Of a stretch of 49,773 bases of DNA, positions 29,444-36,854 are shown piece by piece. The translations under genes were made by a program, and so were the position numbers. How positions within the stretch are numbered: position 1 is the stretch's first letter; each line of letters starts with the position of its first letter. The notes under the pieces are model-generated. The model saw only the letters and a list, made by a program, of their open reading frames with translations, did not search any database and was not told the origin of the DNA. This DNA is from Butyrivibrio sp. (GTDB lineage Bacteria > Bacillota > Clostridia > Lachnospirales > Lachnospiraceae): positions 1 to 49,773 of the forward strand of contig NZ_JAGBLU010000107.1 in NCBI RefSeq assembly GCF_017635265.1, given 5' to 3'.

Positions 29444-29740
29444 TTATTCGATTGTTAAAATATCAACAAATCCTGTTACTTCAAAGATTTCTTTTATTTC
29501 TTCATTGGCATTCTTTACAACCATTTCTCCCTGCTTATTCATAACTTTCTGAGCAGATAAAAGAACTCTCAATCCTGCAGATGATATATACTCAAGCTTT
29601 GATAAATCAAAGTCAAGCTTTGTTACGCCGCCAAGTGCGCTCTTAAGTTCATCATCAAGCTGTGGAGCTGTTGTTGTATCAAGTCTTCCCTCCAAAGCAA
29701 CAGTAAGTTCTGATCCATTTGCAATTTTGTTGATTGTCAT
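29444..29740 (-). CDS. STAS-domain anti-sigma factor antagonist
   Basis: The 98-residue protein is a single STAS domain of SpoIIAA/RsbV type: LEGRLDTTTAPQLDDEL, LDFDLSKLEYISSAGLRVLL, and VTGFVDILTIE. The Ser of YISSAGLRVL is the usual phosphorylation site. Such proteins bind an anti-sigma kinase and free the sigma factor. Here it lies 26 bases after the duplicated ATPase-like protein and one gene beyond an ECF sigma gene, so a partner-switch circuit is likely. Confidence 0.9.
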   Translation of the reverse strand: MTINKIANGSELTVALEGRLDTTTAPQLDDELKSALGGVTKLDFDLSKLEYISSAGLRVLLSAQKVMNKQGEMVVKNANEEIKEIFEVTGFVDILTIE

Positions 29741-29766
29741 ATTGGGCTCCTCTCATAAAAATCTTT

Positions 29767-30966
29767 TTATTTGTTAAGGGTGCAGACAACAGTCATATCC
29801 ACTCTGTCCCCTTTAACGCCTACAATTACATCCTTAGCAACACTGGCAACTATGGATTTTTCAAGTTCATCCCATGCCTGCTTGGCACTTTCATTCATGG
29901 TTACGTCATCGGAAAGAGCATTTCTATACTCGTACAGTGACCATGTTATTCCTGAATCCGCCAGTCCCTCCGTGCTTCCGTACATACCCATTGTACCATA
30001 TGATATATATCCACCGCCATACTCCTGCTGCAATTTCATTACATTATTATAGCCAAGGATTCCATTTTCTATAACATCCCTAACTTTTCCCATAAATCCC
30101 TTAACAGAGGCATTTCCGCCGGAGGACATATCTAAAAGAGTACTCTTTTTTTCTGCACTCATAAGCGTCTTGGCTGTGAGCTTTAAACAAGCCTCATTCT
30201 TATACTTTTCAAACCATACAACAGCGCTGTAATCTCCGGTCATCTCCTTGAGCATTCCAATTGTCTCTTCAAAAACAAGCTTTAAATGTAGCGCATCTTT
30301 TTTACTGAGCTCAAGCTCTTCTATGGCCTCATCAGCCCTGCTGTTGGCATTAGATCCCTGTATATAATCGCTATCTACAATAAGTGGATTTGTGACAATC
30401 TGTGGAACACTTGATCCTACTGTACTGAGTGCTTCAGAGAAGTCCTTGATAACCCACATTTTAATCTTATTCTTATCAATAGAAACAATGATATCGTCTG
30501 CCAGGTTAGCCACAAGAGATCTCTCAAGATCGTCCCATGCTTCCTGGGAATACTTGTCTTCACGTCTCTTTCTTAAAATTTCATTTCTATAATCCTTCAA
30601 AGTCCAGGTTCTTTCTGCCGGAGCCTCAAAGAGAAATGCCTTTACAAGTTGAGAGAAAAATCCTGACTGCGCACTGTTTTCGCCTGTTGTAGATATAGAT
30701 ATAAGCTCTTTTTGCTTATTAGAATCAATATTATTATCTGCTGTAAGATAAATATTTGTAAGCTTTGAACCACCCTCAAACCAAATCTCTACTGTTGTTT
30801 CATCAACAATGGACTTTGCCAGTCTCAGCACTTCTTCTGTAAGAAGTCTAAGACGTAAGGCATTTTTTCCTTCCAACTTAATATCAAAGATATAATCATC
30901 CAAAAGTTGATATGCTCTGCCAATGTCTGTTTCTATGTTACTGATTCTGATATGTTCTGATTGCAT
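29767..30966 (-). CDS. Internally duplicated protein, possible degenerate anti-sigma ATPase
   Basis: The 399-residue protein consists of two similar ~190-residue halves. Shared landmarks are a helix (KNALRLRLLTEEVLRLAKSI versus KDALHLKLVFEETIGMLKEM), a strand (VEIWFE versus AVVWFE), a Trp/Tyr block (WTLKDYRNE versus WSLYEYRNA), and an AWDDLERSLVANLADDIIV-type ending. The helix with EE recalls the N-box helix of HATPase anti-sigma factors, but the catalytic Asn and a clear GxG lid are missing. No signal peptide. Between ECF sigma and STAS genes, it is a candidate anti-sigma or scaffold; function is inferred only. Confidence 0.6.
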   Translation of the reverse strand: MQSEHIRISNIETDIGRAYQLLDDYIFDIKLEGKNALRLRLLTEEVLRLAKSIVDETTVEIWFEGGSKLTNIYLTADNNIDSNKQKELISISTTGENSAQSGFFSQLVKAFLFEAPAERTWTLKDYRNEILRKRREDKYSQEAWDDLERSLVANLADDIIVSIDKNKIKMWVIKDFSEALSTVGSSVPQIVTNPLIVDSDYIQGSNANSRADEAIEELELSKKDALHLKLVFEETIGMLKEMTGDYSAVVWFEKYKNEACLKLTAKTLMSAEKKSTLLDMSSGGNASVKGFMGKVRDVIENGILGYNNVMKLQQEYGGGYISYGTMGMYGSTEGLADSGITWSLYEYRNALSDDVTMNESAKQAWDELEKSIVASVAKDVIVGVKGDRVDMTVVCTLNK

Positions 30967-31049
30967 ATTCTTAGTCCCCCTTCAGCAAAATAGTCCGTTT
31001 ACATTATTATATAAAAAAAATCATAAAAAAAGTATGAAAAAAACAAAAC

Positions 31050-31535
31050 TCACCCCAAATAACCCTGAAGTCTTCCAAGAGCTTCCCTATGTCTTAACTT
31101 GGTTATTCCATAAGACAGATTCATTGTTTTGGCTACCTCCTGAAGGGTTAAACCTTTATAATATCTAAGCACGATAATATCCCTTTGTTCCTCCGGGAGT
31201 TTTAAAAGTGCTGCAGCAAGTTCACTTAAAGACTCCTGTGTGAGCACTTCTTCCTCTATACTACTCTTTGTGTCAGACAAATCCTCCGGAATCTCAGAAT
31301 GAATATGATTAGTCCTGTAAAAGTCGATAACTGTATTACTTGTAATAGAATAAATCCAAGTAGAGATTTTCGCCTTGGATTCATCAAAAGTATCAAGTTT
31401 GTCGTAGACCTTTACAAATACGTCCGCACATAAGTCCTCTGCATCTTCCGGTGAATTGACATGATTTCTTATGTATGCGAACACTTTATCCCTGTAGTCC
31501 GTGTAAATCTGTTCCTTGGAAGGAATGTCCCCCAT
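31050..31535 (-). CDS. ECF-type RNA polymerase sigma factor
   Basis: The 161-residue protein has sigma region 2 (DYRDKVFAYIRNHVNSPEDAEDLCADVF...ISTWIYSITSNTVIDFYR) and region 4 (LPEEQRDIIVLRYYKGLTLQEVAKTMNLS). It lacks regions 1 and 3, as in ECF sigma factors. It starts 17 bases after the small leader-like peptide gene and precedes the duplicated protein and STAS genes. It probably directs transcription of the neighbouring export locus; this is inferred from position. Confidence 0.92.
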   Translation of the reverse strand: MGDIPSKEQIYTDYRDKVFAYIRNHVNSPEDAEDLCADVFVKVYDKLDTFDESKAKISTWIYSITSNTVIDFYRTNHIHSEIPEDLSDTKSSIEEEVLTQESLSELAAALLKLPEEQRDIIVLRYYKGLTLQEVAKTMNLSYGITKLRHREALGRLQGYLG

Positions 31536-31552
31536 GCTGCAATTTCTCCTTT

Positions 31553-31747
31553 TTACAATAATTCGCCCTTTTTAGGGTCTTTACAAATTTCTTTCACTCC
31601 TGCAGCTGCTACGAATTCCAAATCATCATCCGATAGCATTTCCTTGTTGAGCGAATATTTTGATTCCACATTGTGAATAATCTTTTCCAAATCAGCATTT
31701 GGTGAATATTTCTGATAATCAAATAATCTTGATAATCTGTTTTCCAT
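31553..31747 (-). CDS. Small leader-like peptide (64 aa)
   Basis: GGAGG lies seven bases before the ATG. The peptide reads as a helical N-terminus (RLFDYQKYSPNADLEKIIH) followed by KEMLSDDDLEFVAAAG and a short tail VKEICKDPKKGELL with one Cys. LSDDDLxxVxAAG resembles the C-terminal part of double-glycine-type leaders cut by C39 peptidases, and such an exporter is encoded upstream. It could be the exported peptide, or a small regulator of the adjoining sigma factor. Confidence 0.6.
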   Translation of the reverse strand: MENRLSRLFDYQKYSPNADLEKIIHNVESKYSLNKEMLSDDDLEFVAAAGVKEICKDPKKGELL

Positions 31748-31771
31748 AATAAAACCTCCGTTTAGTTGCTA

Positions 31772-31802
31772 TTTTGGTTACACTTATTTATACGAACCAA
31801 AA
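31772..31802. promoter_or_regulatory. Inverted repeat upstream of the leader-like peptide gene
   Basis: TTTTGGTT (31772-31779) and AACCAAAA (31795-31802) form an 8-bp inverted repeat with a 15-bp AT-rich centre, between the ABC transporter stop (31834) and the peptide start (31747). It could be an operator/promoter region for the peptide-sigma unit. Confidence 0.35.
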
Positions 31803-31833
31803 CTAAATCCGGCAATTCTTATTCTATCATTAA

Positions 31834-33984
31834 TTAGAGCTGTTGTCTTTTTACCAGTTCAGCAAAATACCCATTTTTTGCTAACAGATCATCGTAAGTT
31901 CCATCTTCCACAATATGCCCTTCATCCAAAACCACTATCCTGTCACAGTTTTTAACGGTCGATAGTCTGTGCGCCACGACAATTCGAGTACATTTTAACG
32001 TGTACAATGCATCAGATACCTTTTTCTGAGTAATATTATCCAAAGCACTTGTAGCCTCATCAAGTAAAAGAACTTTAGGTTTTGGTGCAATGGCTCTTGC
32101 AATCATCAGACGCTGTTTCTGCCCACCTGATATACCGCCCTGACCTTCAGAAATAATAGTGTTCATTCCCATAGGCATTTTTTTAATATCATCTGCTATT
32201 CCTGCAATTTCAGCCGCTTCCCAGGCATCTTTGAGTGTCAGCGTGGGAGCTGAAATAACAATGTTTGAGAAAATATCTCCCTCAAACAAAGAACCGTCTT
32301 GCGTAACACTTCCAATCTTTCTTCTAAGAGAACCAGGATCGAGCCTTTCTATATCCCTTCCATCATAATAAACTGCACCTTTATCCGGCTTTTCAAATCC
32401 CAAAAGGAGTCTCATGATAGTGCTTTTTCCGCATCCGGTCTTACCAACTATTGCCACATACTCCCCCGGCTTAACTTTAAGGTTAAGTCCTTTTAAAACA
32501 TATGGCGAATTCTCACCGTATTTAAATGATATGTTGCTTAATTCTATTCCACCCGAGAGCCTCTCGACAGTTATTTTATTCTCAGTCCCTTCAGGCTCTA
32601 CACTAAGTATCGGTTCAGCAAGATTAAGAACAGGCGTTATCTGTGCTGCGGCAGAAGCCACCTCCTCAAATCCCGCAAAAATCCCCTGGAAATAGCCAAA
32701 GGCAACCCCAAAAGCTATATAAACTCCGGGAGTAACTCCGCCTTTGACAGCAGAATAATATAAAATAATTGTTCCGATTATATCTATAGCCTTATTAATC
32801 GTTCCGTTATAAATGATATATGGTGGAGGACTATAGCTAAGCCTGGCACTCATATTATAATTATTTGCCCATTTTGCAAAAGCTCGCTTTTCGGCTCCCG
32901 CAAGCTTTATCTTTTGTATACCGTTTATAAGCGCATAACTTAGACCATCCTCATCGGCATCATATGCCATTATCATTTTATTTATCCTGGCCCTAAGCGC
33001 TATAGTCGTCATTGAAACCACAAGGCTTACAAGTACTATCGCAACTGACGGCATTACCAGACACCTGGCATAATTCCCAATTTGGAACACATAAAGCATT
33101 GAAATCACTATAGTAACCGGCAAAGCAAAGAGGTTTTCCACAATCAGGCTACATATCTGGTCCACAGCATCAATTCTGGATGCCAGTTCCCCTGAAGAAA
33201 AGTTCTTAAAAAAAACTGCAGGAAGATTCAATACTCTGCTCATAACAGCAGATTCCACGCTTATTGAGCTCTTTATCTCAATTCTCTCTTTTACTAGCTC
33301 CGAAGAAGCTTCAAAAAGCTGATTCGCAATGATAACCGTAAAAAAATACGCTGCTGTACCCACAAGCATTGGTATATTCTTGCTTGCAAGTACATTTACC
33401 GTAATAAAACCTGTAAGCTGCGTAGAAAAAATGGAACCTAGTGTAAGCATTAATACCAAAAATACATATAATGCAAGATCACTGATATCCATGCAGTTTT
33501 TCATGTAAATAAGCAAATCCGTAATAGATAATTTTTTTCTGGGAAGGGGCCTGTAAAAGCAGTATGCTTCCTCTTCGAATTCCTGATAGTTAGAAGCGTT
33601 AATAGCGATTCTTCTCTTCTTCTCATAATCAAAAAACTTATATTGACCGCCTTTTGGTATAAGAGCAACAGGCTTATTATTACTGCCGTGGTAAGCCAGC
33701 ATCGGTCCATATGCATCTTTATACCACTTCCCCTCAAGTTTGATCCTTCTGTACATTATCCCGTAGGTTTTCACAGCATCCTTTAAGTCTCCTGTGCCTT
33801 CCTTCGGGGTAAATCCAAAGTAACTAATGATCTCTTCCACAGATTTTTTGGCAATATGCTGCCTGTCGGTTTCAAAAGGATCATACTTGCCATCTATGGA
33901 AGACATCATATTGTAGATAGCCTTCTCAAAGATATCCTGATCATTTTTTATTCTTTGTCTTATCTGCTCATCAAACCAGCCCAC
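31834..33984 (-). CDS. NHLM-type ABC transporter, second subunit (ATP-binding/permease)
   Basis: The 716-residue protein has a ~160-residue cytoplasmic N-terminal region without a catalytic Cys, a six-helix membrane domain (~160-460), and an ABC ATPase with Walker A VGKTGCGKST, signature ISGGQKQRL and Walker B VLLLDEATSALD. This matches the second ABC subunit of NHLM-type bacteriocin export systems. It follows the C39-peptidase transporter by 12 bases. The pair probably forms a heterodimeric exporter with the HlyD-like protein encoded upstream. Confidence 0.85.
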   Translation of the reverse strand: MGWFDEQIRQRIKNDQDIFEKAIYNMMSSIDGKYDPFETDRQHIAKKSVEEIISYFGFTPKEGTGDLKDAVKTYGIMYRRIKLEGKWYKDAYGPMLAYHGSNNKPVALIPKGGQYKFFDYEKKRRIAINASNYQEFEEEAYCFYRPLPRKKLSITDLLIYMKNCMDISDLALYVFLVLMLTLGSIFSTQLTGFITVNVLASKNIPMLVGTAAYFFTVIIANQLFEASSELVKERIEIKSSISVESAVMSRVLNLPAVFFKNFSSGELASRIDAVDQICSLIVENLFALPVTIVISMLYVFQIGNYARCLVMPSVAIVLVSLVVSMTTIALRARINKMIMAYDADEDGLSYALINGIQKIKLAGAEKRAFAKWANNYNMSARLSYSPPPYIIYNGTINKAIDIIGTIILYYSAVKGGVTPGVYIAFGVAFGYFQGIFAGFEEVASAAAQITPVLNLAEPILSVEPEGTENKITVERLSGGIELSNISFKYGENSPYVLKGLNLKVKPGEYVAIVGKTGCGKSTIMRLLLGFEKPDKGAVYYDGRDIERLDPGSLRRKIGSVTQDGSLFEGDIFSNIVISAPTLTLKDAWEAAEIAGIADDIKKMPMGMNTIISEGQGGISGGQKQRLMIARAIAPKPKVLLLDEATSALDNITQKKVSDALYTLKCTRIVVAHRLSTVKNCDRIVVLDEGHIVEDGTYDDLLAKNGYFAELVKRQQL

Positions 33985-33996
33985 GTTCGCCCCTCA

Positions 33997-36171
33997 TCAC
34001 TCATTAATAACAAGTTCAGAATAATATCCGTTTTGTTCCATTAATTCCTCATGTTTTCCGCGTTCTACAACTTTTCCGTCTTTTAATACAAGTATTTCAT
34101 CACAGTCACGTATCGTAGAAAGTCTGTGTGCAATAACAAGGCAGGTTATTCCCCTGTCTTTTACCGCTTTTATCAATTCAAACTCAGTTTTTGCGTCAAG
34201 CGCACTCGTTGCCTCATCCAGAATGATTATCGATGGATCCTGTGCAAGAACCCTGGCAATTTCAAGCCTCTGCCTCTGACCCCCGGAAAAATTTCTGCCA
34301 TTTTCTTCAAGGCGACTCTTGTACCCACCTGGTCTGTCCATAATATCATCATGAATTTGCGCATCCCTTGCCGCCATTATCATCTCGAAATCTTCAATGG
34401 AATCATCCCACATCTTAATATTGTTTTCTATGGAATCTGCAAAAAGAACTATATCCTGATCAACGACTGCCACAGACCCCGCAAATACACTTCTATCTAT
34501 TTCAGACATGGGCTTTCCATCAAATGTTATTTCACCTTTCCATGGCTTATAAAGACCTGAAATCAACTTTGATAACGTGCTTTTTCCGCATCCCGATCCA
34601 CCTACAATAGCTATCTTGCTTCCCTGTTTCAGGGTAAAAGATACATCGTCAATGACAGGATCAGCCATTTTGGAATATCCAAATACAAGATTTTTTACTT
34701 CAACATTTCCTGACAATTTTGAAAAAGATTCGTTATCATCACCCTCTTTAAACGTCTGCTCAACAGGGTAATTCATAACATCTTCAACCCTTTCCATCTG
34801 GGTACGCATTTCCTGAATAGTCTGTCCCGCACCTATAAGCTGCATTGCAGGTAAAGTAAATGATGACAGATACATCTGGAAACTCATTACCATACCAAGT
34901 GAGAACTTCCCATGCATCACAAGTCCTACACCTATGAAAAGAACCAGACTGTTAGCTATAATGTTTAAAAGCTCCGGAATTCGTCCAATCCATACATTGA
35001 TATGCGAAAACTCAATGTTCTCTTCCGTAACCTTTGCATGAAGCCCCGACCACTTTTCATAAAACCCGTCTTCAGCTCCACTGGATTTAATGGTTTCAAT
35101 CATAGAGATACCGGATAAAGTAATTGCGGCAAGCTTTCCTGCATCCCTCATGTTTAATCTGGTTATATTGATCCTCTTTTTGGAAATGAACTTTCCCAAA
35201 ACAACATTAAGAAAAATCGTAATTATACCAATCAGGGTAAGCGCCGGACTATACCTTATCATTACTATAAGGTAAAAAAACATCATTCCAATATTTATTG
35301 CAATAGGGGTAATTGTAGATACAACAGTATTAGCTATTGAAGCATTTGTCCTCTTTCTCTGAAGAATATCTCCTGATAGTCTGTTGTTAAAAAAATCCAC
35401 TGGCAAATGAAGCACTTTCCACATGTAAGTACTGTTGCCAATGATAGCCATCTTTCCGTTTATCTTAAGTGAATATAGATCTGTCACTGCACTTACCATG
35501 ATCTCCATGAAACACACAAATGAAAACAGAGCAATAAACGGATTAAGAAGTTCTTTATTTTCCCCTGTCAGAAGGTTGTCCATAAAGAATCTCTTAAATC
35601 CGGGATTGATTATATTAAACGTGTACGCAATGATAGTAGATAGTATAACAAATACAACGGCTGCACCTGCACCATTAAGCCTTTTCATTGCAAATTCAAT
35701 TGTACTTTTTCGTTTTCCGCTTCTTACAAAATCTTTTCCTGGTTTGATAAAAAGGCATATTCCAGTAAAAGCCTCATCAAACTCCTTCATGGAAACAGCT
35801 ATTGTTCCTCTGGCCGGATCATTTATATATGCTTTTCCATTCTTGAATCCATCAAGAACAACAAAGTGATTAAAGTTCCAGTGTATTATGCACGGAAACT
35901 CCCCTTCCTCCATAAGGGCGTCCGGTTCATATTTGTAACCGGTTGCTTCAAACCCATAGTTTCGAGCTGCCTTGAGGATGTTTTTTGCGTTGGAACCATC
36001 CCTTGATACCCCGCAATCAACTCTTACTTGTTCAAGAGGAACCCACTTTTCATAAAATGCCATGACCATAGCAAGGCACGCAGCTCCACATTCAAGCGCT
36101 TCCATCTGCATAACTACCGGAACCTTTGCCAGGCCATGCAATACAGGATTTTTTTCCTTACTGCTATTCAT
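33997..36171 (-). CDS. Peptidase-containing ABC transporter (C39), NHLM-type
   Basis: With ATG 36171 (GGGGAT nine bases upstream), the 724-residue protein starts with a C39 peptidase domain: Cys28 in ALECGAACL, His102 in HWNFNHFVVLDG, Asp118 in INDPARG. The membrane domain (about 160-450) and an ABC ATPase (Walker A VGGSGCGKST, signature FSGGQRQRLEIA, Walker B IIILDEATSALDA) follow. It cuts leader peptides at double-glycine-like sites and exports the core. The HlyD-like gene lies 16 bases upstream and the second ABC gene 12 bases downstream. Confidence 0.92.
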   Translation of the reverse strand: MNSSKEKNPVLHGLAKVPVVMQMEALECGAACLAMVMAFYEKWVPLEQVRVDCGVSRDGSNAKNILKAARNYGFEATGYKYEPDALMEEGEFPCIIHWNFNHFVVLDGFKNGKAYINDPARGTIAVSMKEFDEAFTGICLFIKPGKDFVRSGKRKSTIEFAMKRLNGAGAAVVFVILSTIIAYTFNIINPGFKRFFMDNLLTGENKELLNPFIALFSFVCFMEIMVSAVTDLYSLKINGKMAIIGNSTYMWKVLHLPVDFFNNRLSGDILQRKRTNASIANTVVSTITPIAINIGMMFFYLIVMIRYSPALTLIGIITIFLNVVLGKFISKKRINITRLNMRDAGKLAAITLSGISMIETIKSSGAEDGFYEKWSGLHAKVTEENIEFSHINVWIGRIPELLNIIANSLVLFIGVGLVMHGKFSLGMVMSFQMYLSSFTLPAMQLIGAGQTIQEMRTQMERVEDVMNYPVEQTFKEGDDNESFSKLSGNVEVKNLVFGYSKMADPVIDDVSFTLKQGSKIAIVGGSGCGKSTLSKLISGLYKPWKGEITFDGKPMSEIDRSVFAGSVAVVDQDIVLFADSIENNIKMWDDSIEDFEMIMAARDAQIHDDIMDRPGGYKSRLEENGRNFSGGQRQRLEIARVLAQDPSIIILDEATSALDAKTEFELIKAVKDRGITCLVIAHRLSTIRDCDEILVLKDGKVVERGKHEELMEQNGYYSELVINE

Positions 36172-36187
36172 TATAATCATCCCCGAA

Positions 36188-36604
36188 TCAGTTAAATAGT
36201 AAGTCGATCATTTGCGTCTGTTTATAAGAAGCTTTCGCTTCATAAGATCCGTCAGGTATTTCCATATTTGAAATTGTAATTACATTACCTTCTTCATCAT
36301 GCTTAACATACCCTATGGTTGTAACAAGACCGCCAATTTCCAAATTCATGTCCTCTTTTAATGTCTGCGCAGCTTCACTATTGTCAAACGTAACTGTTAC
36401 AACACCGTCTTTTGCTTCTGCTACTCCGTAAACGTAGCTTTGAATAGATGAAAAATAACTCCACCCTATGAGTCCAAATAGAATCAGCATAACCGCCAAA
36501 AGAATAATCCAGCCCTCCGCTCTTGCCACATGAATATAAGTTGTCAGATCATCCGGAGATGAGATTTTTTCGATACTCTTTTTTCTAAAAAGATCTTCTT
36601 TCAT
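36188..36604 (-). CDS. Short HlyD-like NHLM secretion protein
   Basis: The start MKEDLFRKKSIEKISSPDDL (36604) matches the typical beginning of NHLM secretion proteins (FRK...SPE.L). One membrane helix lies at ~29-51. Only ~85 extracytoplasmic residues follow, with no clear second lipoyl/coiled-coil hairpin, so it is much shorter than classical HlyD adaptors. It is the first gene of the export operon and likely links the ABC pair to the cell wall side. Alternative starts exist at 36616 and 36664. Confidence 0.75.
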   Translation of the reverse strand: MKEDLFRKKSIEKISSPDDLTTYIHVARAEGWIILLAVMLILFGLIGWSYFSSIQSYVYGVAEAKDGVVTVTFDNSEAAQTLKEDMNLEIGGLVTTIGYVKHDEEGNVITISNMEIPDGSYEAKASYKQTQMIDLLFN

Positions 36605-36672
36605 GTTTTTTATCATTCCCTCACAAAAAACTAATGAATAGTTATCTAAACTATATTTTATCACAAAAAAAT

Positions 36673-36696
36673 AGGCTTTTGCGCAAACAAAAGCCT
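36673..36696 (-). terminator. Intrinsic terminator/attenuator before the export operon
   Basis: AGGCTTTTG (36673-36681) pairs with CAAAAGCCT (36688-36696) and the minus strand then reads seven T residues. It lies upstream of the HlyD-like gene, so it either ends the YgjV-like transcript or acts as an attenuator in the export operon leader. Confidence 0.75.
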
Positions 36697-36707
36697 TAAA
36701 GGGAGGA

Positions 36708-36737
36708 AGGGCTGCTTATTACTATAAGCAACCCTTC
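36708..36737. repeat. Second hairpin in the export operon leader
   Basis: A 12-base arm (36708-36719) pairs with 36726-36737 with one mismatch. It lies just upstream (leftward reading) of the terminator at 36673-36696. The two stems in series could form a conditional leader. The 190-base gap 36665-36854 also holds CAAGAG/CTCTTG at 36770-36789 and no gene. Confidence 0.5.
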
Positions 36738-36854
36738 TGTTGTGTTATGAAAAGTATATATGTGGGGTTCAAGAGTGTTGTCTCTCTTGATGTTTATTAT
36801 GTTAAACTCCCAACCTTAAATGAACCTAAAAATAATGTGTCCAAATAGTGAATC

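Follow-up and report, generated by a model that had tools for sequence, protein, structure and literature searches.

The question raised by this locus is what a peptide exporter encoded beside its own sigma factor secretes, and how that secretion is controlled. The window (the whole stretch of Butyrivibrio sp. DNA that was analyzed, 49,773 nucleotides) carries on its minus strand, between positions 29444 and 36604, seven genes transcribed in the order HlyD-like stub, C39 ABC exporter, second ABC exporter, 64-aa peptide, ECF sigma factor, 399-aa protein and STAS protein. An earlier sequence-only reading had given these genes with the same coordinates, strand and order, all of which are confirmed here, and had proposed a circuit in which the 399-aa protein restrains the sigma factor, the STAS protein antagonizes it and the whole is wired to the exporter. 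The reading best supported by the present comparisons is that the locus is probably a hub from which a dispersed regulon is controlled and its peptides are exported.

The C39-peptidase ABC exporter (NHLM ABC1; 33997..36180, minus strand; PF03412, PF00005) contains the C39 domain previously assigned to it and scores 901 bits against TIGR03796, above the cut-off of 853 bits. The second exporter subunit (31834..33984, minus strand), which had been called NHLM-type, indeed has TIGR03797 (NHLM ABC2) as its best match among the models listed, yet its 685 bits fall under the cut-off of 709 bits. The HlyD or membrane-fusion-like protein (36188..36604, minus strand) is 138 aa long when read from the ATG at 36604, with an alternative GTG start at 36664, and its TIGR03794 match covers residues 33-92 of the longer open reading frame and the start of the model only. 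The HlyD likeness thus holds in part; because the match reaches 26.9 bits against a cut-off of 156 bits, the protein is by this measure a stub and not a full-length HlyD, and 138-aa homologues adjoin ABC1 in three further loci (L082-L084). No modifying enzyme was seen in the exporter cassette. The window's own genome contains four NHLM ABC2 loci, which counts against the hub reading as far as the pairing of peptides with this exporter is concerned. An Rfam scan of the window returned nothing at gathering scores. The intergenic stretch between a YgjV-like gene and the exporter (36690-36854, minus strand) is strongly conserved, is recognisable too in B. hungatei and INlla18, and has a predicted fold that beats 200 of 200 shuffles (z -4.6), with no Rfam family at gathering score.

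The ECF sigma factor (31050..31535, minus strand) possesses regions 2 and 4 (PF04542, PF04545), passes TIGR02937 with 109 bits and shows no Sigma70_r3 match at E<=1, in agreement with the earlier assignment. The 64-aa peptide gene (31553..31747, minus strand) encodes a conserved N-terminal module followed by a leader-like end, LSDDDLEFVAAAG, with an export-type AAG motif. Its tail is hypervariable; among 25 family members, mean identity is 50% in the leader part and 8% in the tail. The description of this peptide as leader-like suits its end, yet it matches neither TIGR03793 nor TIGR03798 at E<=1 and no family near any cut-off.

The distribution of both genes was surveyed in 61 genomes of the genus, by a profile search for the peptide and with the ECF clade called at E<=1e-25. 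The peptide profile matches 22 genomes, in three of which (G429, G433 and G446; loci L081, L069 and L070) the match is limited to the end motif and the N-terminal module is of a second kind, here termed class 2, which was first spotted by eye and is listed by a profile seeded with its own members. The window ECF clade is present in 19 genomes, exactly the 19 that possess class-1 peptides (Fisher 3e-16; kinship ignored), with one class-1 match per genome whether linked or not; peptide and ECF lie on separate contigs in G434 and G410 and 2.2 Mb apart in G455. Furthermore, the ECFs that go with class-1 modules are 46-93% identical to the window ECF, and those that go with class-2 modules 21-26% (four class-2 rows). 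Since the peptide occurs in the same 19 genomes as the ECF, even where unlinked, it would suit an anti-sigma factor or another obligate partner, and this co-occurrence suggests that the peptide is more likely than the 399-aa protein to be the direct partner of the ECF.

The same peptide might instead be mere cargo of the adjacent exporter, i.e., a pheromone or bacteriocin, with the ECF alone under transcriptional control and the GHKL and STAS genes as bystanders. Its leader-like end and hypervariable tail fit such a role, as does its confinement to exporter-bearing genomes: NHLM ABC2 at >=500 bits is found in 38 of the 61 genomes, and the peptide family in 22 of these 38 compared to none of the other 23 (p=1.1e-6; kinship ignored), or, among 35 good-quality genomes, in 11 of 20 NHLM-positive and 0 of 15 NHLM-negative ones (p=5.5e-4; kinship ignored). 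This confinement counts for the hub reading as well. In L088 and L091 a class-2 module continues into a double-glycine (GG) or AAG site with a longer tail behind it, and the tails in L068 and L101 appear zinc-ribbon-like by eye, with two CxxC pairs, as do GG peptides of the exporter loci L082-L084. Cargo alone does not, however, explain a single match per genome in exactly the ECF-positive set or the division of ECFs by module class; the junction in the window reads AAG, not GG, and the short GG peptides of the ECF-less loci L082, L083, L086, L090 and L092 lack the N-terminal module. We therefore regard a pure cargo role as somewhat unlikely. As a side observation, zinc-ribbon-like cargo was recognised by eye in GG or AAG peptides of L082, L083, L084 and L101 (two CxxC pairs each) and of L119, L176 and L186 (one CxxC and one more cysteine each); no NCBIfam family was found for the long-tailed relatives in L068 and L077.

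A promoter-like element, TTGCC(A/G)-N15-CGTATAAA, lies ahead of the 64-aa peptide gene (in the window TGCCG-N15-CGTATAAA, 31787..31814, minus strand). With the locus-level pattern TGCC(A/G), N14-16, CGTATA(A/T)A, 16 of the 19 class-1 loci of the genus have it directly ahead of the peptide gene; L063 and L064 have it ~260 bp upstream, in front of a different small gene, and L068 (G404) has no match before its peptide gene. It is kept where the peptide gene lies far from that of the ECF (L059, L066, L067). Among 15 other peptide genes it precedes those of L071 and L077, the upstream sequences of four class-2 peptides having been left out of this comparison owing to a wrong ATG. Bases outside the searched pattern are also conserved, namely a T before TGCC (91%) and a T two bases before CG (79-80%). 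A sigma-A promoter reading of the element, TTGCCG-17-TATAAA, was dropped in view of the wider conservation of TTGCCR-N15-CGTATAAA and its co-occurrence with the ECF.

The motif was also scanned for across the genus with a spacer of 15-16. The window's own genome has 10 matches, compared to 1 for the reversed pattern, and the 61 genomes together have 235 compared to 17. At least seven matches occur in 18 of the 19 ECF-positive genomes (individual counts 9, 13, 8, 11, 0, 14, 9, 10, 7, 11, 16, 14, 17, 9, 15, 10, 10, 7 and 13) as opposed to 2 of the 42 ECF-negative ones (Fisher 2.6e-12; kinship ignored), where G405 has 10, G445 14, eight genomes 1 each and the others 0. The exceptions count against the hub reading: the ECF-positive genome without a match, G404, whose ECF is 50% identical, and G405 and G445, which possess only ECFs of other clades. 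One of the other-clade ECFs of G445 lies downstream of a GG peptide gene that has the motif in front of it. Other ECFs may account for the exceptions, an explanation that holds weakly, because in G405 the closest ECF has no motif nearby and several other ECFs are present in G404 too. Also counted against the hub reading is the lack of the motif, allowing up to 3 mismatches, upstream of the HlyD and 399-aa genes in the window, as are L054-type loci, where the ECF gene comes ahead of the peptide gene and so falls outside the stretch downstream of the motif.

What lies downstream of the motif was read at 69 sites, comprising all 10 of the window's own genome, 39 usable of 40 from six genomes (G408 8 of 9, G444 9 of 10 with one lost to filter, G447 2 of 10, G434 4 of 9, G455 11 of 13 and G452 6 of 7), 14 of 14 from G445 and 6 of 11 from G415; for the fetched genomes, the reading skipped the known peptide sites and, in G455, also the GG site at the exporter locus, and site L187 was removed by the offset filter. 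A stricter GG regular expression matched 1 of 50 sites, and a looser one, used equally on sites and on random positions, matched 24 (two in the own genome, 14 in the six genomes, five in G445 and three in G415). Two of these, L197 and L241, represent a single membrane-protein family and were rejected by hand, and what looks like a GG peptide at L175, starting from a codon other than ATG, was left uncounted. A small double-glycine peptide is thus encoded downstream of 22 of the 69 sites, compared to 339 of 60,000 random positions (0.6%); restricted to places followed by an open reading frame preceded by a ribosome-binding site (RBS), the figures are 22 of 55 and 339 of 10,840. Because of this excess, the products of the exporter are likely to be encoded mostly away from the locus, under the locus's own sigma factor. 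The sequence-only reading had allowed for a product encoded elsewhere, and the two GG peptides of the own genome (L118 and L119) indeed lie on other contigs. The 47 sites without a recognised GG peptide, and the 14 without an RBS-preceded open reading frame, are counted against the hub reading.

The remaining eight sites of the own genome, labelled by eye, are L115 (the 64-aa peptide), L113 and L114 (small hydrophobic peptides), L120 (a lipoprotein-like protein), L111, L112 and L117 (stretches without a clear open reading frame) and L116, which has no RBS-preceded open reading frame and is probably a chance match. Elsewhere, GG peptides follow the motif in two exporter loci (L083, L084) and in three 399-aa/STAS loci (L007, L011, L014), an ill-defined small gene follows it in the exporter locus L082, and InlB-repeat proteins do so in L063, L064 and L071. 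The InlB-repeat proteins were set aside as exporter cargo, those inspected having by eye a signal-peptide-like start. Apparent small RNAs, with no clear open reading frame and with short hairpin-like repeats (e.g., GTAGC..GCTTTAC or GTGGC..GCTTCACC), follow the motif at L111, L112, L117, L180, L196, L201, L207 and L208; on folding, L112 gave z -3.7 and L117 an unremarkable z -0.7.

The other two genes of the locus encode the 399-aa protein (29767..30966, minus strand) and the STAS anti-anti-sigma-like protein (29444..29740, minus strand). The latter passes PF01740 and TIGR00377, as the earlier assignment would have it, and carries SSAGL at residue 53, a motif shared by 36 of 41 homologues, whose conserved serine we take to be the phosphorylated residue. 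The 399-aa protein, without a Pfam or NCBIfam match near cut-off, is a tandem internal duplication (26% identity, E=1e-18). Its N-terminal unit is assigned to the SpoIIAB/RsbW-like GHKL anti-sigma fold on the basis of fold comparison, the duplicated unit resembling HATPase proteins weakly at the level of sequence profiles (probability 29%). In its two units, Leu and Met take the place of the N-box asparagine, and in the family the residue is Met in 29, Leu in 24 and Asn in 3 of 69 pattern matches, some of them spurious; a DxGxG check (2 of 31 versus 2 of 20) was non-discriminating. The protein described beforehand as duplicated and apparently ATPase-dead is therefore duplicated, and it has probably lost ATP binding.

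The order of genes at the locus is not due to chance, since the whole arrangement is conserved in the closest named genomes, Butyrivibrio sp. AE2015, B. proteoclasticus P18 and Butyrivibrio sp. Su6, with two added genes, encoding 158 and 129-142 aa, downstream of ABC2 and ahead of the peptide gene. No match to this pair (158 aa and 110-142 aa) was found in the window, whose source genome is 88% complete. The pair also travels with these exporters and with SpoIIE (L002 8311-9148; L082-L084), and in L082 the 158-aa protein matches HAD weakly, below threshold. In B. hungatei DSM 14810 and INlla18 (G207, G397), the YgjV-like gene directly abuts the 399-aa/STAS pair and no exporter, peptide, ECF or motif match was found, which counts for the hub reading. 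The STAS gene adjoins the 399-aa gene in 16 of 16 loci found with the 399-aa protein, and exporter, peptide and ECF are present in 3 of these 16, several of which are short or ended by a contig edge. The exporter-peptide-ECF cassette therefore comes or goes next to the 399-aa/STAS pair.

Such a pattern would also arise from ancestry only, had the cassette been gained or lost beside an unrelated pair with no functional link, as might be suggested by B. hungatei and INlla18, where YgjV and the 399-aa gene have no cassette between them. This appears quite unlikely, given that the duplicated family, STAS, HATPase and SpoIIE recur near NHLM exporters in other orders (L063, L064, L081-L086). For example, L082-L084 read SpoIIE, HATPase, 158-aa and ~120-aa genes, STAS, single unit, HlyD, ABC1 and ABC2, and L063 and L064 read peptide, ECF, ABC1, ABC2, unit, STAS and HATPase. 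Furthermore, the duplicated family lies <=15 kb from ABC2 in 12 of the 35 genomes with both, compared to 0.68 close pairs expected, four of the 12 being of the window's lineage; this linkage counts for the hub reading as well. It is present in 46 of the 61 genomes, namely 35 of 38 NHLM-positive and 11 of 23 NHLM-negative ones (p=1.7e-4; kinship ignored). In a hand-picked set of 20 NHLM loci, five of which were taken because they lie close to the duplicated family, 12 have one or more genes for SpoIIE, HATPase or STAS proteins and eight have none. Loci L051-L053 duplicate L004, L002 and L003 and were counted once. The own genome encodes two SpoIIE proteins, one right after a HATPase gene, away from the window. 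Separately, at L017 10001-12582 a unit and STAS gene lie directly upstream of a spoIIA-like operon (SpoIIAB above cut-off, SpoIIAA and SigF below), and in L102-L106 a dead anti-sigma-like unit forms the C-terminal part of 458-484-aa proteins, most of which start hydrophobic by eye.

The neighbourhoods of relatives, which were to decide the proposed wiring, do show sigma and STAS genes together with the exporter (AE2015, P18, Su6; L063, L064). The 399-aa/STAS genes are nonetheless an associated and not a dedicated module, because they are NHLM-linked in several lineages yet occur without ECF or exporter. That the family is found next to a spoIIA-like operon in L017 likewise counts against a dedicated role. 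It is improbable that, as first proposed, the 399-aa protein is the anti-sigma factor of the window ECF with the STAS protein as its antagonist. Its N-terminal fold, its position 83 bp from the ECF gene, the peptide-ECF-unit-STAS order found in another genus too (L071) and its location <=35 kb from the ECF in 9 of 19 genomes speak for such a role; against it, the family is found in 27 of 42 ECF-negative genomes, which is counted against the hub reading as well, lies on a different contig from the ECF in ten of the 19 ECF-positive genomes, and resembles SpoIIAB and RsbW, whose known partners are sigma factors of the F/B type. The 64-aa peptide remains the likelier partner.

Taking the locus as a hub, the ECF sigma factor would recognise TTGCC(A/G)-N15/16-CGTATAAA, as its co-occurrence with the motif suggests, and would drive the 64-aa peptide gene and also itself, because in the window the ECF gene lies after the peptide gene. 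The scattered double-glycine peptides also have motif sites in front of them, as do further small peptides, genes for lipoprotein-like products and apparent small RNAs, and the ECF would likewise drive this set. The adjacent C39 exporter, judging from its family, would cut and export the double-glycine peptides, and the 64-aa peptide most likely holds the ECF via its N-terminal module as a feedback anti-sigma factor. In an extension that we consider tentative and fairly unlikely, drawn by analogy with FlgM, the peptide would be both anti-sigma factor and C39/NHLM substrate, so that it would hold the ECF when the exporter is idle, and export or AAG cleavage would free the sigma factor and turn on the scattered GG cargo. 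As the least certain step of the hub reading itself, the dead RsbW-like and STAS proteins might feed signals into the ECF or a neighbouring sigma circuit by partner switching, using a HATPase-SpoIIE pair encoded elsewhere in the genome.

The host bacterial group inhabits the gut and rumen. The proposed logic of peptide secretion is testable, consisting of one ECF sigma factor, a promoter that can be read from the sequence and a set of unlinked small peptides. Some of these peptides carry zinc-ribbon-like cargo, and gene-cluster-based genome mining would miss the set. The locus further offers a candidate export-coupled anti-sigma factor and a partner-switch protein probably without ATP binding. 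In the open-access literature (titles and abstract starts; most subscription journals lie outside this scope), neither an ECF regulon of double-glycine peptides nor an ECF tied to an NHLM exporter was found among the matches listed, and the passages of PMC2887384, PMC8103513, PMC8999054 and PMC13289728 considered here do not describe the present system.

Several known systems resemble parts of this one. The SpoIIAB-SpoIIAA and RsbW-RsbV switches share the fold of the 399-aa N-terminal unit, an SSAGL STAS partner and, in related loci, SpoIIE and HATPase, whereas the protein studied here is duplicated, has lost the N-box Asn and adjoins an ECF rather than a sigma-F/B factor. In the FlgM/FliA system an export-coupled anti-sigma factor is removed by the exporter, an idea that putatively applies here, with an ABC/C39 exporter and an ECF in place of flagellar secretion and FliA. 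Streptococcal regulons place GG peptides under one regulator with a shared PCAT exporter, and likewise combine double-glycine peptides, one regulator and a C39 exporter; unlike in those regulons, the regulator here would be an ECF sigma factor. The anti-sigma factor NepR is small, as is the 64-aa peptide. According to PMC8103513, the EcfG-NepR-PhyR system likewise pairs an ECF sigma factor with a cognate anti-sigma factor, NepR, freed by partner switching, a role that the peptide would fill here; the present locus differs in having no PhyR-like response regulator and in a peptide that carries an exporter-type motif. Finally, the NHLM/NHLP export cluster (TIGR03794/03796/03797; Haft et al. 2010, PMC2887384), as described in that paper, comprises ABC1 with C39, ABC2 and a HlyD-like protein, with leader peptides in several genes per genome, all of which is paralleled here. 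The present locus departs from it in its HlyD stub, an ABC2 under cut-off, a peptide outside the NHLP and Nif11 models and a cassette without a seen modifying enzyme, and would add to it an ECF sigma factor of its own and a dispersed regulon.
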